A stretch of DNA of 64,000 nucleotides from Lenzites betulinus. Its lineage: Eukaryota; Basidiomycota; Agaricomycetes; Polyporales; Polyporaceae. Below, piece after piece: positions 1-60,897 of this stretch. Position numbers and translations under genes: made by a program. The number at the start of each line of letters is the position of its first letter. Position 1 is the first letter of the stretch. Location of the stretch: the NCBI GenBank assembly GCA_022264855.1, contig JABYQU010000052.1, positions 1 through 64,000 of the forward strand. The letters run 5' to 3'. The notes under the pieces were generated by a model. The model had not been told where the DNA came from. It was given only the letters and a program-made list of their open reading frames with translations, and did not search any database.

Positions 1-3000
1 CGAAATGGATCCTGTTGGGGCCGTAGTTGAGGGGCTCTTCGTACTTGAGCCACTTCTTGAGCGATGCTCTGCGTGCGAGTGCAAAGTCGCGATCGATGTG
101 TGTGGGATTGTCAAAGGCCTCTTGTGTCTCCTCAAGTACTGCGACCTTGACAGCAGTCATGACGTCCGCGATGAATGTATCGGCTACGATGGTGGCCATG
201 ATCTTGACGCGATAGGCCACGATGTCCTCGGGAGCTCTTCCTGTGTTGAGTGCACGCGACACTGTTGAATGAATGTGGAACAAGGTGTGATATGTCTGTG
301 CAGGTGTGTAAGCGGACAGAACATGACGCCAGGTGAGGGTGTCTCTCCAACGGCATTGCCGATGGAGAGACAGTATGAACGGTGCTGACAGAGGTGTCTC
401 TCCATCGGCAGTGCCGATGGAGAGACAGTATGAATGACCGTGGTAGGGTGTCCCGCCATCGGCAATGCCGATGGAGAGACAGTAACAATGGTACAGGTGG
501 ATGTGTCCCGCCATCGGCACTGCCGATGGAGAGACACCCTACCACGGTCATTCCTGCTGTCTCTCCATCGGCAGTGCCGATGGCGGGACACACCCACCTG
601 GAGACGGAGGAGTGCATGTCGAAGGGCGTGCGCGATTGGAGGTGTTTACTTACAGTGAAGACATCGCTGCCGTAGGTGATCTCGAGTGCTCGCTTGGAAG
701 CCACGAGTGGATAGCCCGTTATCAGATGCCGTGGCCAGTCGTTCAGGCTGACTGAAGGAAGCAACCCGGTGTCGCCTCCGAGAAACAGAGCAGGGGAGAA
801 GCACGGGAATCCGTGGTCGACCACCGCGCGGCTGGGCCACAGCTTATCCATGACGCCGGTGGCGAGCACCTTCATCGCGCCAGTGTGCGCAAAGTTGATA
901 AGCCGCTCGAGGATCGCGATCATCTCCAGGTCGACGGGATTGGGCGTGGTGGTCACCGCCGGGGTCAGCGAGGGCGACACCTTGCTCCAGAACTGTTCGA
1001 GGAGCACACGCAGGGGATACGTCGTCCAGAGCATGAGATCGGGGAAAACGCCCGGCCTGAAGACCTTGCTCGTCGCCTTGATCGCGTCGAGGACGGTCGG
1101 GTGTGCGCAGGCGGAGGACAGTGGCATCATCACCTTGAGGTACAGCTGTCGCCCAGTGCAGTTGTCAGGATCGAGACGCTGCAGGTGCACAGTGTAGACG
1201 TTTTCGAATCGAAGGAACGTCTGGTCGGCGCGCTCGAGCTGCCCACACAGATCGGTGTGAGGGTTGCTGAGAGAACACGACGCGAAGAGGGCCGTCGCCG
1301 TCGCACGCGCCTTGTTGGTCTTGGCCCAGGCACCTCCAGTCGTCCCAGTGAGCACGCCGCGCTGCGCGATGTGGTGGCGGGCGGAGTGGCGCGTATAGTG
1401 TGCTATATTATTGTAGCACTGACTCTTGATGCCCTCGACCGCGGCGCTCCCTCCCTCGTGCTGCTTGAGAGAGCGCGAGATGGCGGAGATGTGGCGGCGC
1501 AAGGGGTCGATGACGCCGTTCGCCTGCCACTGGCCATGACGGGTGAAGCCCATCGGATAGAGGTGCACGGATGGCGGGTCGATCCCATCCAGCATAGCGT
1601 CGACCTCGCCTTCGTCCTGGTTGGCGGGGCCCCGGTCTCGCACAATGGCGCCGTCCTCGTCGTATGTCCAGATATTGTTGTGGTGGCTGGCTGGCGAACA
1701 GCTGCGAGACCACGCCGAGGTTCTGGAGCACAGCGCAGGGCTCGTATGGGTCGAAGTACGTGACGCTGTGGCGGGGTATGCGGCGGCCGCTGGGGCCGAA
1801 CACTTGTATTTCGCGTTCGTCTCCGTCGTGGAGTGGGTAGTTCGCAAGGTCCTCCACTACCTCGCGTGTCTCTGGATCTGCGGTGGTGTAGATCACAGGG
1901 TGGGCGTTCACGATGGTCTGCGGGTCGATGGGGTTCCAGGACTGGACAGGGACACCCTACAGCGATAGCAGTCAGTCGGCGCACACCAGACAGAGCAGGC
2001 GAAGCGTCCATGGGGGCGTGCTCACCGGTAGTGGGTCGCCAGCGCAAAGGCGACGCGGGCGAGCTTGGAGAAATCGCAGCTGCGATGCCAGAGCTCTGCG
2101 TCGTTCGCCGCTGTGGGGGGGTTGCACACATGCCGGTCCTGGCCGTATTTGAGGACGACAGCCGCAGGGACCCTGCCTTCAAGCAGCGGGTGCTTGTAAG
2201 AGGCCGGAGCCTTCGCCCACCAGGACGGGTACAGCCGCACGATGGTCTCCTGCAACGCACCAAGCTGCTCTGTTGAGAACTCCATGGGGTCGATGTCTCT
2301 GCAGCAGGCGGTGGTTTGAATGAAATGACATGCACAAACAGAGGGGGGACTTACAGGAGATCGCCGACATGCGCTGTAAACGCAGCATTGGAGGAGATGT
2401 CGGGGTAGCGGGTGCGGAGGTAGAAGTTCGTGTAGCCTGATCTGTGCATCATGTACAGCAGACATGCGATGTTGATGCGGGCGAGGAGGGGATCCATGGT
2501 CGACGGACCGGTGTCAGCAGTCATGAGCTCGACTGATGGGTACGGCTCGAGTGCTTGGCGGGGGAAGAGGGTCCACCAGACAGACTCGTTGTCGTGGGAC
2601 TGACCGATGTACAGCATCGCGCCTCGAGGGTTGAAGGCGAGGACCTTGATGTCGCCGGGGTAGGAGATGTAACGCTTCTTGAACGTCATCTTGAATGTCC
2701 AGCCTACTGGATGTTGGACGTCGGGGTCTTGCATGTTGGGAAGGACGGCGTTGAAGCCGATGTCGTTGGGGACTCGACAGTAATAGTCGAGTCGGTGCTG
2801 TGAGCGAGGGGAGATGGCTGGAGTTGAGGGGGCAAGTGAGGGGAGCTGCAATGGAGGGGCGTACCTGATACACCTGCCAGGCGATATTGTTGTCCAGGTG
2901 GGGGTAAACGAACTCGGGGTCGAGGATGAGGGTATTCTTGCGGGTCAAAAGGGCGGCGGCGGCGCGCTTGTCACCGCGGTCATGGAGATGTCGAAGGTGG

Positions 3001-3379
3001 GTGAGGTGGAGATTGTAGGCCGGCGCGTCGTGGTAGGTGTCGATATAGTGTTGGTTGGGCTGGGCTGCCTGGAGGATGGCGAGGTCGAGGATGTCTTGGT
3101 TGCCAGCGTCGTCGGCGTCGAGGGTGTCTGGGATGGCAGCGAGGTCTAGGGCGAAGGAGGGGGCGTTTGTGGCAGGAATGGGATCGTCGTCATTTGAGAA
3201 TGCATGGGAGCCCTGAGGGTGGCTATGGAAGGCATGAGTGCCATCGGAAGGGGAAGCAACGAGAGGGGGGGAGGGCGAGGGATGGAATGGGGAAAGACTT
3301 ACCCAGGATGGTGGGCGACTTGGGCGTTGTCGAGGAGATCTTGGAGGTCGAGATCGTCGTCGATGGAAGACACAGACAT
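1..3379 (-). pseudogene. L-left: large protein of unknown function, partial and frame-broken
   Basis: Reading from an ATG at 3379, exons run 3379-3303, 3222-2865, 2797-2355, 2298-2026, about 1956-654 and 295 to beyond the window edge, with GT-AG introns. It matches the plus-strand gene at 27,313-32,656 along its whole visible length: both have a 273-nt fourth exon, both carry a SARHH-(I/L)-AQ-(R/K)-G-(V/M)-LT segment, and both continue into ALERLLN-like and KWL-rich helical regions. The start is acidic (SSIDDDLDLQDLL), like the other copy. No family is recognised. The frame breaks at the exon 4/5 junction (about 1956, one G apparently missing from a G run) and again near 1690, so it is either decaying or carries sequencing indels. 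It lacks one intron present in the other copy. The last intron (653-296) is enlarged by a palindrome array. Transcription is away from P-left, which lies upstream on the same strand. Confidence 0.7.
340..590. repeat. P1 palindrome array, 5 units, inside an L-left intron
   Basis: Five palindromes of about 33 bp start at 340, 395, 449, 504 and 558. Each has an outer arm TGTCTCTCC or TGTCCCGCC, an inner arm ATCGGCA or AACGGCA, one central base, then the complementary right arm. Start-to-start distances are 54-55 bp. The spacers are about 22 bp and only partly alike. The array lies wholly inside the intron 653-296; the same intron of the paralog (30,772-30,837) is only 66 bp and has no palindrome. 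Confidence 0.9.
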
Positions 3380-4635
3380 GGAAGGAGAGTGTGGGGGGTT
3401 GAAGGAGGGAGAGAAGGAGCGCAGGAGCAAGGGAGAGAAGCAGAGAAGCAGAGAAGTGTGGGGGAGAGAAGCAGAGAAGTGCCGGGGAGAGAGGTGGGCG
3501 AAGTGCGGAAGTGCGGAGGCTGACAGATAGGGAATAAACTTTTAAGGGAATTTGAAATGGGAAGCGAGGAGAAGGCCGGAGGCTGTGTGGTGACGACGAT
3601 CAGGTGTTGGGATTTGAAATGAGACATTGAGATTACGATCTGAGATTGCGGATGGAGATGAGATTGGCTACTGAGATTTGATGGGTGGATGGATTGGGAG
3701 GACGATGATGAAATAAGTGGACTGTATTAGAGTTGGAAGAGGGCGGGGATAGTGGGCGGAGGTGGGGTGAGAAAACGAATAATGCGTACGGAGAGAGCGG
3801 AGAAGAAAGGGTGTGAGAGGGAGGTAATAGAGGGAAGTGTTTTAGTGGATGCAGAATGTGGAGGGATACAAAGTCCGGAGAAGTCCGGAGCGGAAGTCCG
3901 GAGGGGAAGTCCGGAGGGGAGGGGAACACAAACTCCGGAGGCGGAAGAAACTCCGAGTGGAGGGGATACAAAGTGCAGAGCGGAGGGATAAGGTGCGGGG
4001 AGGAGAGGTATGGACAAGGTCATCGGAGATGGGAGAGACGATAATATAATATTATATGTGATAAGAAGGAACGATGAAAGGAAGGAGAGTGGGATAAATG
4101 AGGAATGATATGATATAACATAGAAAGGCGAGAGGGAGTGGGTATAGGTGAGAGGGTGGGGACGGAGCAGGGGGAAGCACAGGAGGGGGCGCAGGGTTAG
4201 GGATAGCTATGGCTTACGATGTTAGTAAAGAGGCAGGGAGGGTGGAGCACGATATGCGGGGGTGGTGGTTAGTCTGCGTTGATGCATGCACTCAGCTTGT
4301 TGATGGGGCGGGGGCTGACGGAGGGCGTCGGTTTGACATTCACTCGCTGTGGGAGGCAATGTGGCCAGATGATGATTGACGATATATTGTTAAAGGGGGA
4401 GGTGGTATGCAAGGATATGGGAAGGCAAGGAGAACGTAAGTGAGGGGCCGAGGCCGCGCGCCCGGAGCCGACGAGGAGAAGGGTAAGTAAACGATGTACT
4501 CTAGGCTGGCTAGAAGCAGTACATGTGGGGGGCGGGGGGTAACAGTACGAGTAGAGGGACTATGCGGTGAGTCTACTGTACGCGAAGTGCGATGCGCGGG
4601 GCGCGATGCGCGGGGGGGATGCTAAGTGCGGCTAC
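3380..4635. other. Purine-rich intergenic region between L-left and P-left
   Basis: No convincing coding sequence is seen. The plus strand is strongly G/A-rich. A short imperfect tandem repeat built on AAGTCCGGAG (about four copies, roughly 3,869-3,935) is the only clear internal structure. It should contain the promoter of L-left (minus strand, start 3379) and the 3' end of P-left. Confidence 0.5.
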
Positions 4636-7600
4636 CTAATCGTAGTCCGTGGGTGCGGGGGGAGGGATACCGGGAGGGGCGGGGTGCGGGTGCGGGGAGC
4701 GGGGTCGTTGTCCTTGTCGACGTCCTTGTCGGGCCTCGCGGCTGCGGCTGCGGAGCGCTGGCGGGTCGAGCGGGAGGAGCTGGCGACGGGCTGCTGCTGG
4801 TGGCGAGCGGGGGGAGCGGGCGTGTTGCGCTTGTGGGGGGGCGAACGCTGCGATGCGGAGGCTGTGGAGTCTGTGAGTGAGTGGGTGAGTGAGTGGTGGG
4901 TGAGTGTGTGGGGGAGCGGAGGGGAAGGGAGAGGGACGTACTGGCGGTGTTGGCGCGGGGACGTTTGCGAGGGGCAGGCGGAGGCTTGGGGGTGCCGGCA
5001 GCTTGCTCCTGCGGCGTAGCGGACGGGCCAACGGAGGGACGGATGTCCTGCATGTCGGGGGCGGTGTCCTCCTCGACGATGGTCTCTGGGACGCGGGTGG
5101 TCGGGGGGAGCTCTGGGTTGGCGTCGATGTTCATGGGGTCCTCGATTGCCTGAGTGTCTGCGAAGGAAATGAGTAACGATGTAGGAAACGAGAGTGTCCC
5201 GCTAACGGCAGTGCCGATAGAGAGACACGCCTGAGGGCCCCGATCGACCTGTCTCTCGAACGGCAGTGCCGATGGAGAGACAGGCCTGCGGGCCATTTCT
5301 TGGGTGTCTCGCCAACGGCGCTGCCGATGGAGAGACAGGCCTGCGGGCCATTTCTTGGGTGTCTCTCGAACGGCAGTGCCGGCGGAGAGACAGCTGTCCT
5401 GTGCCAAAATGATGTGTACTTACCACCGATGCCGCTGCCGTTCTGCGGGGCCCATGCCTCGATATCGCGAAGCTCCTGCGACGAGAGCGGAATCGTCGTC
5501 TGCCCCGCCATTTGGGAGGTTGAGGGGAGGGCGAGCGGGCAGGGGGGCGCTGGGCCGGGGGGTACGGGGGCTGGGAGGGCGCGGGCTGCGAGGGTGCGGG
5601 CTGCGAGGGCGCGGGCTGCGAGGGTGCGGGCTGCGAGGGAGGCTCCATCTCGACGTCCTCGGTGTCGGGCGGGGGTGCGCGAGGGCGCTGGGAGAGATCC
5701 ATGAGCATGCCGCGGCGGGGGGCCGACGGAGCGGGCTCCTCGTCCTCCTCATCGTCGTGCGGAGGCCGTTGCTCGGGCGGGGGGGTCGCCGTCCGTCGGT
5801 GGGAGGAGGTGTCGTCGTCGTCGTCCTCCTCGAGAACCCTAGCGAGGTCCTCGGCGATGTCCTGCGGGTACGCGTACTGGAGGGGGTTCTTGTACCCCTC
5901 CTCCCCGAACTTGTCGACGACGAGGCTGAGATACTTCTGGTACCTGACCTCGTCGTTGTCGCGGAAGTCGGTGAGGTGCGTGTAGTGGTCGGGGTCGTCG
6001 ATGGACTCCTTGAAGGGCCGCGTGAAGTCCTTCTGGAGGTGGTTGTGGCGGAGGACGACGGGGAGGGGGCTCGCGGCGAGCAGACGCGCTTCCTGGCGCG
6101 ACGCGTTCTGGACGAGGGCCTGCAGAAGAGAGGGACAAGGACAAGTGTCAGCGTGTGCGCGAAGAGGGAATGAGAGAGCGCGGCGCGATGGGGGCGTACC
6201 TGGGTGAGGACATCGAGAGCCTCTGCGACCGGGGTGGCCAGCATGAGCCCCTCCTTGTCCGTGTTGCCGGAGATGGCCGCGCCGAAGGGGTCGTGCTGAG
6301 CGACGGAGACGGACATCACCTTGGACACGACGGCCTCGATGTCCTTGGTGTAGTTGACGATGCGGCTTTGCTGCGCGAAGAAGGTGTCGTTCGAGCCGAT
6401 GTCGCGGAAGAGGTCGTACCCGTGCCACTCGCCGTTGCGCTTGAACTCGGCGAAGTGCATTTGATCCCAGTTGGTGAACATCGTGCGCCGCTTGAGCGCG
6501 ACGAGGTCCTCGTTCGGGAACACCTGCGTGGGCGAGAGCGAGCTGTATGTCGTGAAGAACTGCAGGATCTGCTTGTGCAGCTCCTCGCCCGCGTCCGTGC
6601 CGTAGATGGGCCCGTGGACGTCGCGGATGACGTCCCACATCGCGCGCACCTGCATCGCCAGCGCGCGGTTGTTGCGGTACCCCGTGCTCCGGCCGACGTT
6701 GAAGAAGTCGTCGCTGTTCCGCATCACCAACAGCAGGTACTTCATGGTCTTCGCCATCGCCGGCTCCAGCTTGACGGCCTCCAGCGCCTCCGTGGCCTTC
6801 GCCTTGCCCTTGCCCTTGCCCTTGGGCGTCGTGTCCTCCATCGGCTCGTCGCGCTCCGGACGTAGCGGTGGTGCTGCGTCAACATCACGGTCAGCTTCTC
6901 GATGTCCATGTCCTGCGACGTCTCTCGGACCGCCGGCTGGTCCCAGTCGTCCAGGAACGGGTCGACCTCGCTCAGCCAGTCCTCGCGGTTGCGCCGCTTC
7001 TCGTTGATCGTCGCCCACTTCGCGGTCGAGAACCCGAACACATTCCGGTCCCGCCAGTTGAACGACGCCCGCGCAAGATGCCCCTGCACGTCCTGCAGCT
7101 CCGCCATCACGAAGAAGATGAACTGGGGGAGCTGCACCGTGTCGTCATGGTTAGTCCGTGTTCCACACTGCCCAGCCACGACTTACCTCGTACAGCGACA
7201 TCCTCGACGCGCTGCAGATGGACTTGTTCTTGAGCATGAGGAGGAGGCACGTCGAGTGGTCGAGGATGCCGAGATGCGTGATGAAGCGGCGCGCATCGCA
7301 GAGCGGGTCCACAATGCGCACCATCTACAAACAACAATGTGTTAGCACGTGATACTCACAGCATACATGGCATGTTTATGCAGCTGTGGGGGTGTCCCAC
7401 CAACGGCACTGCCGATGGAGAGACACCTTCATATACACTGGTCGGAGTGTCCCACCAACGGCAGTGCCGTTGGAGAGACACCATCATCAACACCAGTGGG
7501 GTGTCCCGCCAACGGCAGTGCCGTTGGTGGGACACTATGATATGGAGCCACCAGCGTGTCCCACCATCGGCAGTGCCGATGGAGAGACACTATGATATGC

Positions 7601-10341
7601 AGTCGCCGGGGTGTCCCACCATCGGCAGTGCCGATGGAGAGACACCCTCACCGACCCATCCCATCCAAAGAAGCATGAAATAGTACTCACAAACCGTACC
7701 GCGTCAGTGACCACCGCAAACGCGGCGATCATGTCCTTGATGAACGTCTGCGTAGGCAGAGGGAACCGCTCGTACGGCCCCTCCGCCCACAACGCGTTCA
7801 GCAGGTCCCACTTCACCCCCGCACCCCGCAGAGCGTCCACCTCCCGCGTATCCCCGTGCACCCCCTGCTCACGCAACTTCTCCACCTCCGCCTTCCAGTG
7901 CGCCTTCACCACGTCACGCACACGCCCCTCGTACCGCAACAGCGCGCGCGACCACTCCGTCTCCTGCCGCTGCCCCGCTGCCACAGCCTGCCCAGGGATC
8001 GCCCGGAAACTCCACGCGTTCGCCACCTCCGCCACGTAGATCTTGTCGATCGCACCCATCACCTCCCCCGTCCACACCAGGTCCACCTCCGGCTCCACCG
8101 TCATCTCCTCCATCAACGCTGACCACTTCTCCATCTGCTCAGTCCGCCACGTCCGCGAACCGAGCCCCGCGCACTCCCTCTCCAGCTCCTTCGCCGCGCC
8201 AGTGTCCCCGTTGATCCGGCAACGCCGCCACTGCAGCAGCAGGCCCATGTCCTTGTACAACGCCTTGAACGTCGCGTTCTTCGTCGCGTCCTCAGGCGTC
8301 GCGATCCACCGCATGTCCTGCAGCTTCGCCTGCACCGCCAGGATCCACAACTGTAAACGTACACACAATCCGTTAGCGTACTCAATCAATACCATGCGTT
8401 CGCGTCACTCACATGTCCAGTCCCGCCCGTCCGCGCGTCGCTGATCGCCTGCAGCTGCGTCGACTTGATCTTCTGCCCGTCCCGCAGGTACTTCACCTTC
8501 GAGATCTCCACGCAGAACTCGTACAGGTACGGGTTGTACAGCACCTTGAAGTCCCGCCCCTGGTTGTGCCGAAGCTCCGCCGCCCACAGCTTCGACATCG
8601 TCGCCTTCAGCCACTCCGTCGTCAGCACACCAGGTCGCCCCTCCCCCTCCTTCAGCAGGTGGCCCTCCAGCTGGATGCACCGCGAGAACAGCCGCTCCAC
8701 CGTCCCCTGGTGCATGTTCGGCTTGTTCTCGTTCCGCGACAGGAACTCGCCCATCACGGGCGTGAACCCCGCTGTACACACACTCTCCTCGTTAGCTCAT
8801 GTACTTTCGCGAATCGCACTCGCACTCACTCTTGATGTACACCTCCACCGCCCAGTACCCAATCACCTTCAGCTTCTCCTCCAGCTCCTTGATGTGGTCC
8901 CGACGCTTGACCTCCCGCTGGTACGCCTTCGACGTCGGCCGCTTCTCCAGGTCCGCCGGCTTCAGCGCAGCCTTCTCCTTCTCCAGCTCCTTCTCGATCT
9001 TCTTCCGGATTCGCTTCAGGGCTTCCACCCGGTGCCCCCCTCCCAGCACCTCGATCGCCGCAGTCAGCACCGCCTGGCGCCACCGCAGAATCTGGATCCG
9101 GTCCCGCGTCGACCCCTCCGGCGCGAGCGAGTCCACATGCACCCAATCCTCGTCAATGAGGATCGCGATCGGGTCCCGCATGTTGTCGATCCCGATCTCG
9201 AAGCTCTTCTCCAGCTCCTTGACGTGCGTCTCGTCGATGCTACGCCCGACGAACGTCCCCCACTTCAGCTTCAGCTGCATTCAGAATATATCATTAGCTC
9301 GTTCCGCGTTCGACAACACTGTTACTCACATGTGGGCTCAGCAGATCGATGAACCCGATCCCCAAGAACTTCTTCTTCACCTCCGCCTTCATCGCCTCCT
9401 CTTGCAGGATCTCCTGCGTCTTGATCTGCGTCACCGGCGGAATGTCCATCTGGACGACGTCGTCGTCGTCCTCTGCCATCGCCTTCGATCCGCCCGCGTC
9501 GTCCTCGTCCTCGTCCTCGTCCTCCTCGCTCTCCTGGCGCGCCTTCGACTTCGACCCGCCGCTCGCCCGCCGCACGACCTTCTTCTTGGTCGGCAGCTTG
9601 GGGATGACGTCCTCGTCCGCGGAGTCTGTCGTTCGGGTGCGTCAGTCCCCTCCTGGCTCGTTCGTCCGGCCGCGCTACCGGTACTCACCCGACGATGACG
9701 GCGGCACCGCGGCGCGCCCTTTCCCCTTCACCTTCGGACGCGGCTTCGGCGCGCCCTTCCCCTTCCCGCCCGTCTTCTCCTTCGGCTTCGGCGTCGGCTC
9801 TCCGTCGTCCTCTGTAGGCCTGGTCAGTTCCGCGGAATGCACCCACAACGACGCCCATGCATACCCTCGTCGATGGCGTCCTCGGGGAAGAGATCGACCT
9901 CCGGAGTTTGTCCGTCCTCCTCGTCGTCCTCCGCCCCATCGTCCTCCGCCCCCCACTCGCTCGCCGACAACTCGTACTCCGAGTTCTCCTCAGGCACGTA
10001 GGCGTCAGACTCACCTGCGGCCGACCCTTCCGCGTCCAGCATCGCAGCCTCCGACTGCTCCCCATCCTCCGGGTCCTCCGGATCCTCCTCCGATTCCGCG
10101 TCCTCCTCATCCTCCACAGCCACAGCTCGCTTCTTCCCCTTCGGCCGCCCGGAAACCTCCACCACCTGTCAACGGAACTTATATCAGTACCACTGCGTTC
10201 TCCGCCCACTCAACGGGTACGTACCACCCGCCCCTTCACTGCACCCACCTTGCTCTTGCTCTTCATCGCCGTCGTCTTCCGCGGACGCTCCTTGTGCGGA
10301 CTCTCCCGCCCCTTTCCCTTCGAACTCGTGGCCTTCGGCAT
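4636..10341 (-). CDS. P-left: giant protein with ParB/sulfiredoxin-like segment
   Basis: ATG at 10341; exons approximately 10341-10225, 10165-9865, 9811-9689, 9625-9330, 9274-8830, 8771-8413, 8350-7691, 7325-7197, 7131-6200, 6119-5424, 5157-4942 and a last exon ending near 4636. Phases agree from exon 1 through exon 8. Residues 1-280 are lysine-rich, then acidic (runs of E/D), suggesting a nuclear protein. From about residue 280 comes a segment resembling ParB N-terminal/sulfiredoxin folds: GRSIDETHVKELEKSF, then RDPIAILIDE, then GGGHRVEALKR, which corresponds to the ParB G-x-R-R-type motif. A long helical region follows. The C-terminal part is repetitive (four S-Q-P-A-P units). A frame change near 6,865 and another in the G-run region near 5,530-5,660 have no intron to explain them and may be homopolymer indels. 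The C-terminal frame is uncertain. Exons 9-10 match the truncated copy at 23,651-26,849. Confidence 0.65.
5194..5392. repeat. P1 palindrome array, 4 units, inside a P-left intron
   Basis: Units start at 5194, 5250, 5305 and 5360 (pitch 55-56 bp). Arms vary between TGTCCCGCT, TGTCTCTCG and TGTCTCGCC, with AACGGCA on the left and TGCCGAT on the right in most units. The array fills the intron between the exons ending at 5424 and starting at 5157. Confidence 0.85.
7393..7644. repeat. P1 palindrome array, 5 units, inside a P-left intron
   Basis: Units start at 7393, 7448, 7502, 7557 and 7612 (pitch 54-55 bp). One unit has the core AACGGCA-G-TGCCGTT and another ATCGGCA-G-TGCCGAT, so both arms have changed together and keep the dyad. 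The array occupies intron 7690-7326 and accounts for its 365-bp length; most other introns of the gene are 45-80 bp. Confidence 0.9.
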
Positions 10342-11220
10342 TGGAACGCTTTGGCGGCACAGAAGAAGGCGATGATAGTGGTGGAAGGAAGAAAGCGACG
10401 TCCGGTTCCCGTCTCGCGTAAGATTCGAAATTTTCATACACGTGTTCACCTCGCCGCCGGCCCTGCCTACTTTTTATCTTATCTATACCTGTTCCGGATC
10501 GGCCGTTTCCTAATCCAGTCTATAGCTTTAATTTACTAACATCTTTATATACCATGTCAATAAATCACGTGCACTTTATTTCGCTTCGGAATATCCAGAA
10601 CAACCTCTATTTTCCTCCGCTACATTGTTGCTTGACACAGCTGATTATTTGTGCATCACATATTTTATCACGACAGAAACACCCAATTTGCACCTCGGAA
10701 GGGTGTCCCGCCATCGGCACTGCCGATGCCGGGACACTACATTATTGGCTTGTTCACCTGTCTCTGCATCGGCACTGCCGATGGCGGGACACCTCCGCCC
10801 CTCCGCCCTGCACATGGCCCGCCCTACACATTGCCCTGCTCATTGCCCGCCCTCCGCCCCTCCGCCCCTCCGCCCTGCGCATTGCCCGCCCTCCACGGTC
10901 ATCCTCAGGACTTCCTCCGCGGCATTCCCTAATTATCCCCGCGGCATTCTCTATTTATCCCCGTCCTCATCTCCTCCCGCAACATCGACCCTGCCTCATA
11001 GAAACCACGCACTCATCTAGCTCGTCGCCCTCGCTTCCTCGCCGTCTCCGTCTCCCCCGCCCTCCCGTACACTCCTTCCGACTGCTCCCAATTCAGCAAT
11101 CCTCTATCCTCTTCATCCTCCTCCCTCGGTCTCCAACGCGTCCCTGCAGCCCTTCCCCCCGCCTTTTAATGCATCGCATCTCCTCTCCCCCGGCTTCTCC
11201 CCATTCTCCACCTCATCATC
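10342..11220. promoter_or_regulatory. Divergent intergenic region between P-left and BAH-PHD1-A, with two P1 palindromes
   Basis: This segment separates divergently transcribed genes (P-left minus from 10341, BAH-PHD1-A plus from 11221), so it should hold both promoters. Two P1 palindromes start at 10704 and 10759, again 55 bp apart. The right part (about 10,795-11,160) is C-rich low-complexity sequence with repeated CCGCCCT-like words; long open frames there reflect composition, not coding. About 10,490-10,680 is comparatively AT-rich. Confidence 0.5.
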
Positions 11221-12768: not shown

Positions 12769-13053
12769 CGTCCCGCCATCGGCAGTGCCGTTGGAGAGAC
12801 ACATTGTCACATAAGATGCTGCCACTCAGGGTGTCCCGCCATCGGCAGTGCCGTTGGAGAGACACATTTATACGTCAGATGTTGCTGCTGACGGTGTCCC
12901 GCCATCGGCAGTGCCGATGCAGAGACACATTTGTACTCAATATTGTGCTGCTAACGCTGTCCCGCCATCGGCAGTGCCGTTGGAGAGACACATTTATACT
13001 CAATATCTTGCTGCTCACGCCGTCCCTCCATCGGCATCGCCGTTGGAGAGACA
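12769..13053. repeat. P1 palindrome array, 5 units of exactly 63 bp
   Basis: Units start at 12769, 12832, 12895, 12958 and 13021, each exactly 63 bp apart. Most have left inner arm ATCGGCA and right inner arm TGCCGTT, so the stem is imperfect at one position. Unlike the intron arrays, the 30-bp spacers resemble one another, so this is also a tandem repeat. It lies between the convergent 3' ends of the BAH-PHD genes. Confidence 0.9.
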
Positions 13054-14641: not shown

Positions 14642-15206
14642 TGTTCGGAGTTGATGGGTGTGTGAACGGAGTGTAAGAATAGATCGTGCACACAATGGTA
14701 CAAAGAGAACCTTGCTCAACAGCCGCAGCTCCATTTTTATACCAACATACACGTGCTTGCACTGCATATCCTTATGTAAAGACTTATGTAAAGACTTATG
14801 TAAAGACATGTCAAAACACAGCAGGTCCATTGCCATATCTGAACACCTGTGACGTCATACCATTCCCGCTCTCCATATCTCCCCTGGGACGCGTCTCTCC
14901 ATCGGCACTGCCGATGCTGGGACACCATCAAGTCCAGGTATAATGCTGTCCCAGCATCGGCAATGCCGTTGGAGAGACTCCATACCCACCCTTAACCGCC
15001 CGTCTCTCTATCGGCAATGCCGATGGAGAGACACCTCCAGCACTTGTTATAACACACATTTCACCATATATCACATCATGTTTTTGGCCCTCTTTTCCCT
15101 GTTTCTATCCTCCCCCTGCCTTAACCTCTGCTTTAACCCCCAGTTTGGCCAAATCCTACCCCGACCCTGCCCTAACCCCCACCAGGGTTACAAAAAGAGA
15201 CATTTA
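14642..15206. repeat. P1 units, 12-bp tandem repeat and shared tail (copy A)
   Basis: It contains about three copies of a 12-bp repeat TTATGTAAAGAC (roughly 14,771-14,806), then three P1 palindromes starting at 14892, 14947 and 15001 (pitch 54-55), then a C-rich tail (about 15,077-15,206) with telomere-like CCCTAAC words ending in gagacattta. The same tail ends copies B (23,604) and C (40,983). No gene is seen here other than the 5' end of BAH-PHD2-A. Confidence 0.8.
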
Positions 15207-15274
15207 ATTGTACCGAAAGCGACCCCGAAGCTGGAGAATTCTACCGCCCCAGCCGCCGCCGCCGCCTGCAATGA
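15207..15274 (+). pseudogene. Remnant of the last exon of L
   Basis: These 68 bp are identical to 32,589-32,656, the final part of L-right exon 8 including its TGA stop (15272-15274). They directly follow the shared tail. The rest of L is absent, so this is a 3' fragment carried at the edge of the duplicated block. Confidence 0.9.
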
Positions 15275-15582
15275 ATTCTTTTGCGCTACATCTCCTATGG
15301 ACGTGTATATAACTTCCTATCCCTAATGCCTCACCCTACGTATTTGCTCTCTTCTCAATTGCCCTGTGTCCCTGTCGTCATCTGCCATTGCTCCCATATA
15401 GTGCTAGAATGTCTGCCGTGATCATAAATACAATAATGAGTGTGTCATTTAACCACCATATATTTCATCCACCCGTTCCTGTGAATGCGTCTTACTAGGG
15501 CCGAGACGGTGTAAGCCGCACACCCCGTGTCCGCGGCGATGCGCAGCCACGGACACGTCTTCCATGTACCCTTGCGCGAGGC

Positions 15583-16083
15583 GGGTCCACGCACCTGCGC
15601 GGCCGTGGACGAGACCCTCCGGCACGTCGCGCGCCCCGCGGCTGCGCATGTGCGCGGCCGCGGCGTGTCCACTCCGATACATCGAGCGACCCGCGGCTGC
15701 GCAGGTGCGCGGCCGCGGCTCGTATCCTCCAGGCTGTCGAGCGTCCCGCGGCCGCGCAGGTGCGCGGCCGCGGGAGAGACCCTCCGGCACATCGCGCGCG
15801 CCGCGGCTGCGCAAGTGCGCAGCCGCGGCGCGTCACCTCAAGTGCATCCGACGCCCCGCGGCCGCGCACCTGCGCGGCCGCGGGCGAGACCCTCCGCCAC
15901 ATTGGACGCCCCGTGGCCGCGCACGAGACCCCACGGCACGTGGCGCGCCCCGCGGCTGCGCAAGTGCGCGGCCGCGGACGAGACCCTCGGGCACGTCGCG
16001 CGCCCCGCCGCGAACCTCGGCGGTCACGGCCCGTTGGCCCGGCACGTCGCGTGACCCGCCCCTCCGCCCCTGCGCGGCCGCGG
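15583..16083. repeat. P2 GC-rich palindrome array
   Basis: Palindromes of 28 bp (arm CCGCGGCCGCGCA, 2-nt centre, reverse-complement arm, with variants) start at 15636, 15691, 15746, 15801, 15856 and 15911, exactly 55 bp apart; the next starts at 15950 because the preceding unit lacks its right half. Centres alternate between CC, GG and NN variants. Spacers are 27 bp and partly similar. The array lies in the 3' flank of the L remnant. ORFs rich in RGRAPARPR-like text here are artefacts of the repeat. Confidence 0.92.
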
Positions 16084-16600
16084 AGGAGATCAGCCGGCAT
16101 CTCGCGCGACCTGCGGCTGCGGCCTGTACCCCCAGCACATCGTACATTCCTGCATGTGTTCAACATATCATGAAATAATCATATCCACATGATGTATCGT
16201 AGGATTCAATCCACACCCGCCCTTGGAATGCTGTAGGAAGTGTAAATGGAACGCAAGAGTAGGTACGCAGCTGGTGTTCAGCAATCTTTGCGCCGCCTTT
16301 GCGCCGTCTGCATCGATCGCTCTGCCCTCACCACTTCAATGTCGTGGGACGGAGCGTTGGCGCATGCACTGAATGATCGTCTACCTCTGCAGCACCCGCT
16401 GGAGGAGGAGTGGCGGCTAGCGCTGTAGTCGGGTCCACACATCCCAAATCTATACTTGGGACAACTTACAGTTCGATCTGCAACCTTAACTTGGCCATGG
16501 GAAAGGGAGGCGATCACTCATCGGACGGTGTCGCTATCGCCAGCGGTCTCTCGTCGACGGCATCGCACCGACACCCTTGTCCGCCTACCTGCTTGCCAGA

Positions 16601-18978: not shown

Positions 18979-18980
18979 AC

Positions 18981-19436
18981 CCCGCGGCCGCGGGCACTTA
19001 TCCGCGTGGGAGATGGGACCCCGCGGCCGCGCACCTGCGCGGCCGCGGGACCTTACCCGAGTGTGCGCCGGACACCCGCGGCCGCGCACCTGCGCAACCG
19101 CGGGCACTTATCCGCGTGGGAGATGGGACCCCGCGGTCGCGCACCTGCGCGGCCGCGGGACCTTACCCGGGTGTGCGCCGGACACCCGCGGCCGCGGACC
19201 CGCGCCTGTGCATCACATCGTACCCCGCGGCCGCGCATGTGCGCGACCGCGGGCACTTCTCCGCGTGTCAGATCGGACCCCGCGGCCGCGCACCCCCGTG
19301 TGAGATCGGACCTCGCGGTCGCGCACCTGCGCGGAAGCGGGCACGTTCCTCTGTGTGAGCTGCGCACCAGCGGCCGCGGGAACATGGCCGCGTGTAAGCA
19401 GGCCACCCGCAGCCGCGCAAGTGCGCGACCGCGGCG
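18981..19436. repeat. P2 GC-rich palindrome array
   Basis: CCGCGG starts at 18982 (12-bp half unit), 19021, 19076 and 19131, spaced 39, 55 and 55 bp. A 39-bp step follows each 12-bp half palindrome, so the spacer stays at 27 bp. Later units are more degenerate. The spacers (for example GCACTTATCCGCGTGGGAG) differ from those of the array at 15,583. Confidence 0.9.
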
Positions 19437-27312: not shown

Positions 27313-30300
27313 ATGTCCGACCGCTCCTCACCTTTCCAAAGCGACAACGAGTTGTTTGAGTTCGACGGGGATGGCAGGTACGCTAGTTTCGAGTTACTGT
27401 CTGCTACCACGCCCTGCCTCTTATGCGTATGAATAATATTTGCGCGTTGCAGAGACCGCGAGGACGCCGACATCGTCGCGCTCGAGCAGGCGATGGAGCA
27501 AGCGGTGCTCGGCGCAGAGGCGTTCAACGAATTCAGAAACGCCCGCGAGGATGAGCTCGCGCCCGCCGACGCGCTGGTCGAGGATGGCGTGCCGGTGACC
27601 ATGGTCGCCGAGGACGGCGTCGAGCAGGAAGAGATCACGCGCAGCATCGAGGACGACATGCTCCAGCAGTCCCGCAATGCGCGAAAGTACGAGGAGGCCA
27701 AGATGCATACCATCTATCTCTCCGAGTTGGAGGAAGTCCACAGGCGCGGCAAATACAAGAAGGCTATGGAGATCGCTGCCCGAAAGAATCGTCTTGTGAT
27801 CGATGCGAAGTACAAGATCGACCCCTTTGACCCTAATATCATGTGGATGATGCCTGGCGTGAGTCCATGTGTTCGTGTTCGCGCACCACCTCACCCAACT
27901 GCTCCGCGCTGCAGGTGTATTTGGACCACCGGCTCATCATTGCCCGCGAGCTCGGGTTTGACGTCCTCCTGCCCAACAACACCAGGCCCGGCGGCCAGTA
28001 CGACCACACATGGCAGTTCACCATCGACATGAAGAAGCGACACCATCAGTTCGGCGGCGACGTGCGCATGTTTGGGTGCGATATGGCGGGACGCATGTTG
28101 CGTATCGGACACACACAGTCGGACGAGGACGTGTGGTTGTCTCTGGTTCCGAGCGACTGCTTCGACAACCCAGTTCACCCGCACCGTGTCGTGCTCAGCA
28201 AGAAGACCACGGTGATGAAAGCGCAGCTCTCACTTGTGATGATCGCCTCAGTCCTATACGCCCTCCACACGGCGAAGATCAAAGACATACGCCTGACGCA
28301 AAACTATCCGCCGGTGAACTCACCGCAAGACCTCAATAGGGCCTGGGACTGCTCGTAAGTCTCGCCACTATGTTAGGACAGGTATCATGCGCCTGGCCCG
28401 GCATCGCACGTTAGGAAACCCGCGGCCGCGCACCTGCGCGGCCGCGGGGACACGCGTCGGCCTTGGAGAACCACCCGCGGCCGCGCACCTGCGCGGCCGC
28501 GGGGACAAGCGTCGGCCTTGGAGGACCACCCGCGGCCGCGCACCTGCGCGGCCGCGGGGCCTTGCGTCCGTCCTGGAGGACCACCCGCGGCTGCGCAGGT
28601 GCGCGGCCGCGGGACACGCGTTCGTCCTTGGAGGAGCACGCGCGGCCGCGCACCTGCGCAGCCGCGGGGCCTTGCGTCGCTCTTGGAGGAGCACGCGCGG
28701 CTGCGCAGGTGCGCGGCCGCGGGACACGCGTCCGTCCTGGAGGACCATCCGCGGCCGCGGGCAGTCAGTGTCGCATCGATTGATGATCATTCTGTCTGTA
28801 CTGTGTACTTATTCTATTCGTATGCGCAGAGATCGCGGTACATTCAAGTTGTCCATCGCGGAGATGAAGAAGTTTGCAAAGGCGTACAAGGAGAACTTTG
28901 ACACCTGGTACGAGGGCGCTCCCGCCAGCTACCGCTTTCCGGAGCTCGAAGACTCCGTCCCTGTCATTGCCATCCTCAACTATGGCCAGAACCGAGAGGT
29001 CGGCACAGCCCAGACCATCGATCAGGTCGCCGAGTTTTGGGATCGCGAAATCGACTACAAGCCTGTCTGGCGCATGACCATTGCCCTTGCGGCCCACTAT
29101 GCGTAAGCTCCGTCCCTGTCTCTGACCCTCTTCTGCTATATCTGCATCTCACTTTGCACCATGTGTACTGCAGCGCCGTCCCAGTTCAGGATTGGCGTCC
29201 TTACAACGCTCAACGGATCAAGGACGCAAATCCCGAGATCTACGACTCAGACGACCCCAACAGTCGCACCCTCATCGAGGACATTCTTACATATCCTCTC
29301 GTCGATGGGAATGGCCTTGAGAAACGTATTTACGCCCCCGACTGTACACGCATCAAACGCAGGCGTGCTGTCGGTCTTCATTCCTCCGAACGCTGCGGCA
29401 TCATGCAGGATCTCAGTGCCATCCACCGCCTCTTCTGCGCTCCCTCTGGCTTGGACGACGAGCTCATGGAAGTCGATCCCGTCGTTGACCCTGATGCGCA
29501 TAACCCGGGCAACATAAACGACGTCGACCACGAGCTGAACATGCAGTATGCCCGTCGCCTGCCTCCCCTCGAGGACGTCGCCTACACCTCCTATCCCCAT
29601 TTCTTCTCCAAGAACATCGGACAGTGGCAGGCCGACGGCGTGATGCAGCCCATGATGCCGCTCATCCGCTCCCTGTCCAACGAGCTCTCTCGCCCTCACT
29701 CTGGCGGCAAGGCCATCGTCGCACTGAATTCCCAGTGTTACAACACCATCGCCCACAGCACCCGCTTCAGTGCCCGCCATCACCTTGCGCAGAAGGGGAT
29801 GCTCACCGTGACGTCTGCAGGGCCCTGGGCAACCACGCCGAAGGCTCGCAACACCGCCGACAAGCTCTTCGGCAAGGTCAGCTACAGCCTCCCCCACGAA
29901 CGCCTCGTCAACCAGCTCCTTCTCGGCTCCGACAACTGCCTGCGTGTCGAGAACAACTTCCTCATCGACTTCGACCACCTGCGAGGGGAGTTCCACAACG
30001 GCGGCGACATCTATCGCCATTTCATCATGAAGTACGAGGCATTCTGCCGACGCAGCTCTTTGCTCGAGGCCATCAAGAGCGTGTCCGTTCTTCTCACCCA
30101 TGACGTAAGTCCTCCCCCTGCACACGCCTCCCCGTGCCCATCGCTCGTCGTGTCCGTTGCTGATCACCTCGGCGCCTTCCCTCCCTCAGTGCTTCCCCTA
30201 CGCATACGTTTGGTGCGGCCACCCCTTCGCGGTCACCATGAAGATGCTGTGGAAGGCCCACGTCCAGCCATGCATCGAGGCCAACGCAAATCTTACCGCA

Positions 30301-38443: not shown

Positions 38444-38607
38444 CTATGTCCTTGTTGTATACGCGTCGCTAACGTCTGCGGGTGGGGAGGTCAATGTGGA
38501 TGATCGCTTACATGTTTCCGAGTACTTACAACGTCGTGTAGCATGCTCTGACAGCGAATAATGTATTCCTGCCGACATACAACTCGTGTGAATAAGCATG
38601 ACGTCAT

Positions 38608-43156: not shown

Positions 43157-43164
43157 GGCTTGCG

Positions 43165-45559: not shown

Positions 45560-45567
45560 GGCTTGCG

Positions 45568-46713
45568 TCCAGTTGGTGTGCATTTCTGGCCTACGATAAC
45601 TACTTCGGGCCTACAGATTTGTGCCTTGAGACCTGAAAAGGTGATTCCTGCCTGCCCTACTCGATGCAGAATCTGGTGAACATCATTTGCATGTTCCCAA
45701 ATGAAGCGGCGAATTCCTGGATTCTGTTTGATGGTTTCTGGATGTCCTGTGTCATCAAGATACTGTGTTGCAGGTCCTTTGATTGGGAGGTCATCAATAA
45801 AAACATTGGCCACATCTGGAATTTCATCTTGTAAAACAAATGTCATGCACGCTTGGAACTCTGCCGGAGAGTTGGTGAAGCCCATGGGCATTGAAGTCAG
45901 GCGGAGCAGGCCTAGCGGAGACTGGAAGGCGGTCAGGTCTCGGCTGACTGGATCGAGCTTGCGTGCGTCAAAGGCCCAGAATAAGTCTAGAACTGTGTAG
46001 CATTGTCGTCCAGCAAATGGTTCTACGAAGTCGTCTAGGCTTGGAGGGAGGCCTGCATCGCGGATTGTGATGGCATTGAGTGGCTGTAGGTCATGTACGA
46101 GTCGAAGCTTCCCGTTCTTCTTGAGTACGCAGAACCACTTGGATCGGTATGATGACTGGCATCGTTCGTAGACTCCAGCATCTAGTTTCCCCTTCATGAG
46201 CTCAATGACTTGTTCACGGATGCCTGGAGGAATGGGTATGTTCTTCTCGACCCAGGGTACGTGTGGGATAGTAGGAATAATGTAAGGGGAGAAGTAGTCT
46301 TCGCGGAAGGTGCCACGGTCCGATTCTTCAAATGCGAGAACCCGCTCGTTAAGTTGAAAAATATGTTTGAAAAGTTTCTCTTCTTCTGGCCATAGGTAGC
46401 CATTGTCATTGATTTTCATTTCTTCAATCCGTTCAGCCGTGAGTTTCAAAGAGGGTTGAAAGTCTGGTGGTTGCGGCGGGAGTGGGGGTAGTGTCTTTAG
46501 AGGGTCTTTGGGAATCTGTCGTATGACACGTGCTTCCTCTGGGAAGACACCGGGAATGGGCTTGATACGTCGGTCTACTGGTTTATAGGCCCCAAGAACT
46601 TCTGCCGGACTTCCGCCTGCGGAGTTGACTTCAGGATGGAGTGGGTCCTCTGCCAGGTCGCTCATGTCTTCAATTATTAGAAAGACCAATGGTCGCCTCT
46701 CTGGCGGATGCAT
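45568..46713 (-). CDS. pol: Gypsy pol, 5' part: reverse transcriptase
   Basis: The ORF from 46713 has a proline-rich start and then RT motifs: SKWFCVLKKNGKLRLVHD, LDLFWAFDAR, MPMGFTNSPA and the catalytic FIDDLP (about residue 304), then the palm/thumb end GQKCTPTGRKP where the inverted-repeat transposon interrupts it. A TATA-like sequence (ATATATCTCC on this strand) lies shortly upstream. Confidence 0.9.
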
Positions 46714-55300: not shown

Positions 55301-56780
55301 CCAATGGTCCGCCGTACGCAATGAAGTTGACCTTGGGCAGAACACGCTCAATTGCCTGGACAATGGTCTCACCATCGTTACGTCTGATGAGCTGGCCATC
55401 TTTGTTGGTTATGCGACCGCGGTAGTCTCGGAGGACTTGTCCCTTGGATATGAACTTCTGTAACTCTGGGCAGTTGCTGATCATGTGTCCCGGCTGTCCA
55501 CACCCGTAACAGCCTTGGTTGCCGGTTGGTGGTAGAGGTGGGCGAGCAGGTGGGCGTCCCATTTGGTTCATGCCTGGTCTCTGCATATGTGGTGGGAGAT
55601 CCCGGGGAACATTCTGGTTGAAGCGAGGAGGTGGACAAAGTATTGGTTGGTAGAAGCATTGCTGTACATTTGGGTCGATGCGGCAGGCTTTCAGGTATGC
55701 TGCTCCATATTGTGGGTCGTCCAACTGTAATGTGTGCAGCTGCTTGATTAGGGCATCTAGCTCAATGTCCTCGGCCTTGCGTTGTGGTGCTCCTGTTTGT
55801 GATGCCTCCTGCAATGGTCCTTCTTTGACCTTCTCGTGTTGCTCCTTTGTGTACTTCTGGAGTCGCTTCTTGCGGGTCTCTTGCTCCTCTTCTCCCTCGG
55901 AGTCGTTCTCGTCTTCATCTTCTTCATCAAACCTACTTACCTTACGGCCTGGGATGGGTGTGTCCCTCCCATCTCTCCTCCGGGTCGGTCCCGTGTCTTC
56001 TTGGTCTGAGTCTTCATCATCTGACTGTTCTTCATGAAAGCGTCGAGAGCCCAAGCGTTCTGTATCGAACCGGTCGACACTGAGGAGCGCCTTTGCTGCC
56101 TTGTCAATAGCATCTGGGTCGAATGGTGTCGCCATATTATGCCTCGGATCCTCGAGGAGGATCCTTGCTTCCAACCGCTTCCGAAATGCCTTGTGAATCC
56201 CGATCCACATGTAGTATGCATAGTCGGTGTTGGAGATCTTCTGCCTGCCTTGTAGCCACCCTGCGATGCGTACGAAGCTGCGGAGATAGTGTCGCCAGTC
56301 CCGTAGTTCAATAATTGGTTCTTCCTTAGATTTCCCAGTGAAACGTTGGAGATCCTTGATGCGGAAGCGCTTTGACTCCAGGTCTGCGTTCCAGTGAATA
56401 CGAATGTCCTCTTTCAGCTGCGTCCATGCGCCTCGCTGATATGATGGGAAGCCTTCAATTGTCTCCCGAATTATGCGACCACAGTAGTCTGTAATAGTCT
56501 CGCACTTCTCCTGCTCTGTGAGGTGATAAGAAAGAGCCAGCCTTTCATATTTGCGCAAGAAGGGTTCCACATCTGCTGCTTCTCCACGGAAGCACTTTGG
56601 GGCACGGCGGGATCCTTCTACTGGCATGTCAAGCACAGAGCGGGATGTTGCAAGGCTGAAGTCTGATCCTATGGTAGGACTTGGGGCGGGGTGCGCCTCC
56701 TCCATGAGAATCTGTGGGAACTGGTAGATGTGGGTGGGTGTTGTTGGTGTGTAGTGGTCCAGGATAGTCTGAGGAATCAA
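52389..56780 (-). CDS. gag-pro: Gag-protease polyprotein with two retropepsin-like domains (1,463 aa)
   Basis: One uninterrupted ORF. The N-terminal third is a Ty3-type gag (KCFRGEAADVEPFLRKYERL). A CCHC zinc knuckle, CYGCGQPGHMISNC, lies at about residues 421-435. A first retropepsin is centred on FIVDTGSQLN (about residue 697) with GLLGRPWQQAHKIG downstream; a second on FLLDTGAQADC (about residue 1054) with GILGQPWQRANCMW downstream. The repeated layout (DTG, then G-(L/I)-L-G-(R/Q)-PW) shows a duplicated protease unit. The C-terminal 150 residues are acidic and unrecognised. It is the first ORF of the retroelement, just downstream of the possible primer-binding site. Confidence 0.88.
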   Translation of the reverse strand: MIPQTILDHYTPTTPTHIYQFPQILMEEAHPAPSPTIGSDFSLATSRSVLDMPVEGSRRAPKCFRGEAADVEPFLRKYERLALSYHLTEQEKCETITDYCGRIIRETIEGFPSYQRGAWTQLKEDIRIHWNADLESKRFRIKDLQRFTGKSKEEPIIELRDWRHYLRSFVRIAGWLQGRQKISNTDYAYYMWIGIHKAFRKRLEARILLEDPRHNMATPFDPDAIDKAAKALLSVDRFDTERLGSRRFHEEQSDDEDSDQEDTGPTRRRDGRDTPIPGRKVSRFDEEDEDENDSEGEEEQETRKKRLQKYTKEQHEKVKEGPLQEASQTGAPQRKAEDIELDALIKQLHTLQLDDPQYGAAYLKACRIDPNVQQCFYQPILCPPPRFNQNVPRDLPPHMQRPGMNQMGRPPARPPLPPTGNQGCYGCGQPGHMISNCPELQKFISKGQVLRDYRGRITNKDGQLIRRNDGETIVQAIERVLPKVNFIAYGGPLEEEDNDEELEVEEADVMVYPVERSQKNVRPYRKQAFDGVGIPSREKDKDKQKKADTPTRANSGHQFPMQRLVPVETQPVTFDPNKDIDMIDDRTQTQGPKKRTTSEPSATEKGKWVARASDVSKTVDPAKIAEKLLDLPVTLQVRDIAGSSREIASSLIDMLKLKKADIIPATALGPAAHLITSRTGSLIRLQMECNFKPVTFIVDTGSQLNIISEKVCKNIVRKPINTGEAITMNDANGGTGRLLGLVEDIPLKLGHITTPISAYVAENPPFDGLLGRPWQQAHKIGIEEREDGTYLLFPATRGYPKSEMMVTAQSAPEIPPGVYTAVVTEWTPTTGPKAPATSDVTAEHAIKAEDSTRQSDLESLCNHRAASDYTPEPSSPVGTPPSDSESQPSQSSEDEEEPLKAADLDLPEDLTPSTRVYGWDRRRTQMLPTELNSLLTQAGSLLGVPITPHHGHTTWAGPTTISSQNCLVLQHSMTMQTPAFLLPNALLTYEGGTYQGNALVNILPSQLESYPQVHVNMINMRKLPMGPVSSPYALRPRPPPLISLRVLIGRLHIPFLLDTGAQADCIRTDVFQALGGTLLTLPYRAKLYNANGHPLACRGIWRTTVMFGNITSTVDLHVIDNLTANGILGQPWQRANCMWLRHFSDGTLIGVQSQDGCRTYELLITAPEARRAAWGHIGQLETATREVKDGEIVELSGDESPEVEETLPDETLGTGTMSTQTMGTNLELYIPSQDPWDVDFESRHEDGPGPGLIQSRMYRNLLLKYLVDHKLDHQEENTRVELPEVLGADRFALTDAWKVNPAGNEDLLLLKNILVKVDGQYREGHAAMHIQYFPHTTDRVIEAARNEEAAAQKSTETLVLSSDEESPLHAPRAHPVFPRWTQADIEDFMEELEDYETGAHAQRWRLSWGQESNQSDMANHSDQARPFEHTCNSNGCDQDYSMEGNSSGNTSTSDRNASRSRSI

Positions 56781-60427: not shown

Positions 60428-60538
60428 GTAAGTCGTCCTTCCCTGCCGCGGTCGCCGCAGCCGTCGAGCAGATCACTCCCATATCGAGTGCCGAGGAGGT
60501 GAGCTGACCACACCTCCGAGGCCGCACAGGTGAGTGGC

Positions 60539-60897
60539 CGAGGCTGCGCACCTGAGTGTTAAGCAGCCGCCCGCGGCCGCGGCTACTCATCTGAGTATTA
60601 AACAGGCACCCGCGGCCGCGCACCTGCGCGGCCGCGGGCACCTGCCTGTGTGTGAGCCAGCCACCCGCGGTTGCGCAGGTGCGCGGCCGCGGCCATGCAC
60701 CTGCTTGTGAACCAGCCACCCGCGGCCGCGCACCTGCGCGGCCGCGGGCACCTGCCGGAGTGTTAAACAGCCGCCCGCGGCCGCGGCTACTCATCTGAGT
60801 ATTAAACAGGCACCCGCGGCCGCGCAGGTGCGCGGCCGCGGGTCATGGATGGCTGTATGACGGATGGCCCGCGGCCGCGCAGGTGCGCGGCCGCGGG
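60539..60897. repeat. P2 palindrome array downstream of the PCNA exon
   Basis: CCGCGG unit starts at 60571, 60610, 60665, 60720, 60775, 60814 and 60869: steps 39, 55, 55, 55, 39, 55. The 39-bp steps follow 12-bp half units, so the spacer is always 27 bp. Spacers (such as GCTACTCATCTGAGTATT) are unrelated to those of arrays elsewhere in the window. Confidence 0.95.

Follow-up and report, generated by a model that had tools for sequence, protein, structure and literature searches.

Dyad arrays near chromosome ends of Lenzites betulinus change by whole units and may bind a dimeric protein

The first 64 kb of a contig of the basidiomycete Lenzites betulinus (contig JABYQU010000052.1, here C57, of the assembly GCA_022264855.1, 37.4 Mb in 108 contigs; this stretch of 64,000 nucleotides is called the window) carry two families of palindromic dyads, P1 and P2, in arrays of nearly regular step. 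An earlier reading of the window made from the sequence only, here called the sequence-only reading, had claimed that both families keep one pitch of about 55 bp with unrelated spacers at different loci, and inspection of the window found the arrays of both families at the positions claimed. The locus raises the question how arrays of different dyads keep a step while the DNA between the dyads alters, and whether they do so for the sake of a protein. The arrays and their steps are described here together with the gain, loss and inversion of whole units, the occurrence of arrays at the same three introns of two diverged gene clusters and the lack of detectable relation among the P1 spacers of these introns. 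The arrays are tentatively read as sites at which a dimeric protein may bind two half-sites.

Dyad families, position and spacing

The unit of every array is a dyad of two inverted half-sites, 28-33 bp in length, and a short spacer. The assembly was searched with exact P1 and P2 patterns and with the reversed patterns as control, and this genome-wide scan, which the sequence-only reading had proposed, returned 88 copies of P1, 113 copies of P2 (positions being taken from 100 listed matches) and no match of either control pattern. On contigs of known length a contig end lay at most 26 kb away for 49 of 49 P1 matches (of the 88) and for 63 of 63 P2 matches (of the 100 listed); this count covers 112 of the 188 listed copies, the remaining 39 P1 and 37 P2 copies being located on C57, C73 and C106, and two of the contigs counted, C6 and C10, measure only 10-13 kb in all. 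TTAGGG repeats terminate C3, C6, C10, C13 and C48 among the matches listed (100 of 219), and also C56.

A third dyad, P3 (TGTCTCGCTGGCGGACGTCCGCCAGCGAGACA), has 20 forward matches, located on C3 (14), on C57 beyond the window (4) and on C89 (2). P1 and P3 are taken as related because the outer TGTC(T/C)C/G(A/G)GACA and the inner CGG occur in both. P3 copies with irregular steps or steps of 70-73 bp were also seen at C57:66776-68491, beyond the window, and at C3:13168. Across the 106 arms of 53 P1 units, nine of 16 positions have at most one exception, the centre is free, and positions 5, 7 and 11 vary within C/T, A/G/T and mostly A/T, three degenerate positions which the search pattern itself favoured. 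The two arms of a P1 unit differ at 141 positions in total, compared with 118 expected after re-pairing of arms, and only 3 of 53 units are perfect; P2 arms show 80 mismatches with 84.6 expected and no significant excess of matching arms, and P3 arms 22 with 25.3 expected, the perfect units coming nearest to significance (p 0.052). Arms within a unit are no more alike than arms taken from separate units. This argues against selection for RNA hairpins, as well as against one arm having been repaired from its partner, and independent half-sites fit the data.

Steps were counted in 35 arrays (48 were found, of which 13 were dropped because their spacers equal those of another array; near-identical copies remain). 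Up to 75 bp, the P1 steps measure 54 (10 times), 55 (19) and 63 bp (11), the P2 steps 54 (1), 55 (54), 56 (2), 57 (1), 61 (1) and 65 bp (1), and the 14 P3 steps 51 (1), 52 (7), 53 (3), 61 (1) and 73 bp (2). When all steps below 300 bp were taken from the genome list, P1 gave 54 (11), 55 (19), 63 (7), 109 (10), 126 (5) and 189 bp (3), and the P2 matches listed gave 55 (60), 56 (1), 57 (2), 94 (5) and 110 bp (2) as well as steps of 88, 127, 148 (twice) and 149 bp. The pitch of about 55 bp thus holds for 29 of 40 P1 steps, at 54-55 bp, and for 54 of 60 P2 steps, but not for the P1 arrays at 63 bp in a repeat called X (window positions 12769, 21230 and 38609; 11 of 40 steps) nor for P3, mostly at 52 bp, and it is not universal even in P2, which deviates in six of 60 steps. 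The 55 bp shared by P1 and P2 is weak evidence, since P3 runs mostly at 52 bp and P1 elsewhere at 63 bp (73 bp also occurs). Outside the left array of X the P1 spacers measure 21-22 bp. Phasing on the DNA helix was rejected as an explanation: 52, 63 and 73 bp come close to five, six and seven turns but 55 bp does not, a judgement made by hand and not significant.

P2 steps such as 88, 94 and 106 bp coincide with halved or decayed units. The half step of 39 bp described by the sequence-only reading was confirmed, 94 being 55 plus 39: two 27-bp spacers flank a 12-bp half unit, in which the 28-bp P2 dyad is reduced to CCGCGGCCGCGG while the spacers are retained. Such a shrunken dyad is, as expected, what slippage between two copies of CGCGGCCGCG would produce. 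Tandem mini-introns or introner-like units were considered because CAG|GTGAGT appears on one strand of some P2 spacers; in the test, which covered P2 spacers, the donor motif GTRAGK occurred in 4 of 49 unique spacers in reversed and 2 of 49 in forward orientation (1.1 and 0.7 by shuffling), within the range of the shuffles, and this candidate was dropped.

Whole-unit change and the relatedness of spacers

Copies of one intron array differ in unit number and in orientation. In the copy on C10 of the array in intron I of a gene called gene A, the spacers follow the order A B C' B' A', an exact inverted arrangement. Another gene, gene B, has copies on C48 and C75 with the same 567-residue frame at 100% identity (with one stop in C75), and its array holds six dyads in the window, five on C48 and three on C75. 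Repeat X, which is flanked on both sides by P1 arrays about 1.8 kb apart and has whole or partial copies on C13, C56, C27, C29, C42 and C2 besides C57, carries 4, 5 or 6 units in the left array of six copies, and all 23 spacers of this array measure 30 bp. Head-to-tail units with whole-unit copy change, as in a minisatellite, are thus present in the left X array and in gene B. As units are gained, lost and inverted whole, the step is preserved, and insertion with a fixed ruler, one of the mechanisms suggested by the sequence-only reading, is weakened, since whole-unit gain, loss and inversion suffice. On C56 (about position 4880) TTAGGG repeats take over at the point where the X copy stops, as though telomere addition had healed a broken end.

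The sequence-only reading had further held that spacers of different loci are unrelated, so that tandem duplication from one ancestor would not suffice. For P1 this stands as far as relation is detectable: the spacers of the three intron arrays at 340, 5195 and 7393 show no detectable relation (p 0.63, 0.89 and 0.99; 300 shuffles), and a common origin of the P1 units including their spacers was not detectable. As the dyads of these arrays are near-identical, exchange tracts would need to end within about 33 bp. In the same comparison of P1 and P3 spacers (36 pairs, p values uncorrected) one 5195 spacer resembles a spacer of the array at C3:10623 (p 0.010).

For P2 the claim fails at three groups of loci at least, and a single ancestral unit including its spacer is largely consistent with the data. 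Common flanks define the groups, namely 19021 with C17:6193 and a locus at about C2:17.3 kb, 60516 with C19:14147, and C17:2765 with C19:8552; between the groups only short matches at unequal distances were found. In a comparison of chosen spacers of nine loci (p values uncorrected) the spacers are nevertheless clearly related across the three groups and in register (p at most 0.001 for 19021 with 60516, 19021 with C17:2765 and 60516 with C17:2765). The C2 spacers show relation to those of 60516 (p 0.003) and none to the 19021 or C17:6193 spacers, the 28420 spacers are weakly related to other loci (best p 0.0045), and for the 15525 spacers just one p value lies below 0.05 (0.0165). The pair of loci that the sequence-only reading itself had named, 28420 and 60516, is marginal (36% identity with 27% expected, p 0.021, uncorrected).

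Spacers were compared with the flanks of their own arrays in 17 of the 48 arrays (nine P1/P3, eight P2), a check also proposed by the sequence-only reading. None of 18 P1/P3 flanks matched its own spacers (lowest p 0.066 against shuffled spacers and 0.053 against spacers of other loci), and capture of local DNA is therefore unsupported. Matches were found for seven of 16 P2 flanks (p 0.007 in comparison with shuffles); at six of these the array continues as half or decayed units, and the seventh is the last spacer-like stretch of C19:8552. Insertion with target-site duplication was rejected on the same results, the P2 matches being mostly array run-on.

Arrays in introns and at other loci

The cluster of gene A at the left end of the window has a paralogue on C3, which is collinear with the window from 8.9 to 0 kb at a DNA identity of 72.6% over the best 2.4 kb. 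The same three introns bear arrays in both clusters, consisting of P1 on C57, C6 and C10 and of P3 in all three cases on C3. The splice donors and acceptors of the array introns in the window are canonical (Table 1), and the coding matches to C3 reach these introns from both sides, the downstream match at array 5195 starting about 140 bp past the acceptor. Apart from the arrays, blastn found no match between the three introns of one cluster and those of the other. A decayed gene A piece in a contig interior (C34:144001-146500) and a gene-B-like piece on C52 carry no array, and both are too decayed or partial to decide on an empty site.

Gene B, at about 27.4-32.6 kb, is distantly paralogous to gene A, and its P2 array occupies another intron than array I: the gap between the aligned exons of gene A that matches the array intron of gene B measures about 50 bp and has no array, and the gap of gene B at the position of array I measures at most about 60 bp. 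The window repeats 15207-23606 directly at 32589-40985 (8.4 kb, 99.9% identity), and the two copies flank gene B.

Other P2 arrays adjoin or lie within pieces of ordinary genes, for example a piece at 60.2 kb which, from its translation, we take as PCNA-like. The PCNA gene on C88, 73% identical to this piece, has a 554-bp intron free of P1, P2 and P3; the matching DNA ends just inside this intron and thus gives no position for an empty site. Subtelomeric pieces similar to this PCNA neighbourhood (window 60.2-60.5 kb; C19, about 7.6-8.6 kb) terminate at P2 arrays, as if P2 marked duplication breakpoints; the piece in the window and that on C19 share 83% identity, and the likeness of C19 to C88 was seen by eye only. 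Elsewhere in the window, retrotransposon coding parts are located at 41611-43182, 45370-46713 and 52389-56780 (RNase H and integrase, reverse transcriptase, and an aspartic protease polyprotein), and an exact inverted repeat of 1,353 bp with a 105-bp centre lies near the window end (61080-62432 and 62538-63890).

Table 1. Dyad arrays of the window and the introns that enclose them
Feature	Position	Strand	Description
Gene A intron I	296..653	-	358 bp, GTAAGT...CACAG; encloses P1 array I; both flanking exons align with the C3 paralogue
P1 array I	340..590		5 dyads, steps 55/54/55/54; some spacers in both orientations; counterpart C3:10623
Intron II	5158..5423	-	266 bp, GTAAGT...CGCAG; encloses P1 array II
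P1 array II	5195..5392		4 dyads, step 55; counterpart P3 array C3:3557-3796
Intron III	7325..7690	-	366 bp, GTGAGT...TGTAG; encloses P1 array III
P1 array III	7393..7644		5 dyads, steps 55/54/55/55; counterpart P3 array C3:1311-1447
P1 pair	10704..10791		Step 55
P1 array, left of repeat X	12769..13053		5 units, step 63; copies at 21230 and 38609 have 4
P1 array, right of repeat X	14892..15033		3 units, steps 55/54; copies at 23290 and 40669
P2 array with half units	15525..16083		Copy at 32907
P2 array with half units	18983..19434		Copy at 36363; right flank common to C17:6193 and the P2 locus at about C2:17.3 kb
Gene B intron	28355..28829	+	475 bp, GTAAGT...GCAG; encloses P2 array
P2 array in gene B	28420..28759		6 dyads and a half unit, step 55
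P2 array with half units	60516..60896		Downstream of a GTAAGT donor at 60428 in the PCNA-like gene piece

Weighing of explanations and known systems

Among the proposals of the sequence-only reading, a spacing-sensitive protein, the binding of which we infer, remains the best functional one, and the interpretation preferred here, with somewhat less than even confidence, is that the subtelomeric arrays are sites for a dimeric DNA-binding protein. Pairing of dyads with dyads in both orientations would presumably let arrays gain, lose or invert whole units, and such change would keep the step inside an array nearly fixed while the spacer sequence alters. The dyads would be the putative binding sites, and the near-constant spacing might let adjacent dimers touch. 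The likely role would be the control of telomere-side genes, or an insulator or chromatin mark on them, and the switch from P1 to P3 at all three introns may reflect sites that follow a changed protein. A narrower version, according to which ruler-spaced operators in the three introns of the cluster have a lineage-specific dyad (P1 or P3, with P2 in gene B) that changes together with its cognate dimeric protein, perhaps encoded in the cluster, is considered rather unlikely.

A deficit of unequal neighbouring spacers would speak for a binding array in P2. Among neighbouring P2 spacers, 36 pairs have the same length and differ on average at 9.0 of 27 positions, and six pairs are unequal, whereas nearby non-array DNA predicts 18.5 unequal pairs (nine alignments with 18 gap openings and 265 mismatches) or 16.3 (one alignment with 6 and 106). 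Further points in favour of the operator reading are the arrays at the same three introns with aligned coding sequence on either side, the bases that P1 and P3 have in common, the conserved P1 arm positions, the near-identical P1 dyads beside unrelated spacers, and the gain, loss and inversion of whole units; moreover, where neighbouring P1 spacers differ in length, they do so by 1 bp in all 13 cases.

Several results weigh against the operator reading. The nine control alignments include several copies of one segment, and at half the control ratio 10.9 unequal P2 pairs are expected (p 0.05). P1 and P3 show no deficit of insertions and deletions, with 13 unequal pairs of 27 neighbours (11.5 expected) and six of 10 (4.5 expected); this absence shifts weight from the operator reading toward the neutral explanation set out below. 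In the eight copies of the right X array the arm cores vary at 3 of 72 columns and are thus no slower than the flanks, which vary at 20 of 432 (138 left-end columns, five of which vary among the other seven copies, were dropped by hand where one copy leaves the repeat). The spacers, with 7 of 43 variable columns, change faster than the flanks (p 0.007), so that fast point change could mimic a constraint on length, and the degenerate arm positions (3 of 27) are intermediate between flanks and spacers. Furthermore, the pitch differs among families (52, 54-55, 63 and 73 bp), and half units disrupt the phase of an array. The C3 arrays 3557 and 10623 have a spacer in common (p 0.003, uncorrected); exchange between arrays therefore occurs and could alone spread a dyad through the cluster. 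Finally, the scanned pieces of the cluster yielded no candidate DNA-binding domain: its reading frames, scanned as separate pieces, gave no Pfam match, and profile searches of the host genes against the PDB gave weak matches only (5h3c_A, E 0.066; SRCAP 6igm_H, E 0.0076; 3d19_A, E 0.68).

A close rival, ranking just behind the operator reading and credited with appreciable though lesser probability, is a neutral subtelomeric palindromic minisatellite, in which the palindrome breaks or stalls replication forks and the pitch is inherited; arrays would grow and shrink by whole units, spread from one chromosome end to another along with segmental duplications, and be tolerated both in introns and between genes. 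This explanation is favoured by the position of every match on contigs of known length near a contig end (49 of 88 P1, 63 of 100 listed P2), by unit numbers that differ between near-identical copies, by P2 spacers that are related across loci, several of which have common flanks, by the X arm cores, which change no more slowly than their flanks, and by the missing deficit of insertions and deletions in P1 and P3 spacers. It accounts less readily for the retention of three arrays at corresponding introns whose remainder does not match between the clusters, for the occurrence of a single dyad with unrelated spacers in three introns and for the different dyad at all three introns of the other cluster.

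An improbable explanation is that P1 beside X and P1 in the telomere-side cluster serve as binding or crossover sites of one transposase or recombinase. The position of P1 arrays on both sides of X, the X copies on six further contigs and the spacers inverted between dyads inside arrays would agree with it, but the scanned pieces of X and of the cluster have no transposase or recombinase domain, and the scanned host-gene pieces likewise lack transposase, recombinase and transposon domains; moreover, six X copies lie near contig ends, one of them running straight into telomere repeats, and the intron arrays are not at element ends. Selection for RNA hairpins that bring the splice sites of long introns together is very improbable: four window arrays lie in introns with canonical ends, their arms could pair, and G-U exceeds A-C in sense orientation (22 to 9, repeated copies counted), but the arms do not covary, the excess shrinks to 13 to 8 (summed by hand) when repeated copies are removed, and several P2 arrays have no known intron location. 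Least credible is the proposal of the sequence-only reading that units insert by a fixed ruler or capture local DNA of a set length. The locus-specific P1 spacers of near-constant length would suit it, but the failure of P1/P3 flanks to match, the sufficiency of whole-unit change and the P2 spacers common to several loci disfavour it.

Should the operator reading be true, the arrays would form a natural series of matched lineages of sites and host genes at chromosome ends, in which arrays are kept in introns despite turnover of the motif, and would allow tests of how a spaced array, rather than a single site, controls telomere-side genes. Should the neutral minisatellite be true, they would be a clean case of step-preserving array growth and inversion and would warn against taking regular spacing for function.

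No publication on such arrays was found among literature listings and the openings of abstracts. Like CRISPR arrays, the arrays combine palindromic repeats with spacers of uniform length, but they belong to a eukaryote, and the spacers of one array are for the most part related; a CRISPR array, in which unrelated spacers are expected, was rejected on this ground, no search for cas genes having been made. Introner elements and the internally symmetrical stwintrons of fungi are likewise repeated intron-borne sequences with internal symmetry; here, in contrast, P2 units have no excess of donor motifs and the introns that hold arrays are ordinary ones. Minisatellites and subtelomeric tandem repeats are generally known for the head-to-tail units, whole-unit copy change and clustering near telomeres also seen here, whereas the present unit consists of a dyad with a changing spacer and recurs in the same introns of two diverged paralogues, with a different dyad at all three. 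Arrays of dyad operators or iterons have the same conserved half-sites, regular spacing and free spacer sequence, but the present arrays lie in introns of telomere-side fungal genes and their cognate protein is putative. The var genes of Plasmodium falciparum are also a telomere-side multigene family with a conserved intron implicated in gene control; here three introns of one cluster hold arrays, and the likeness is one of description.

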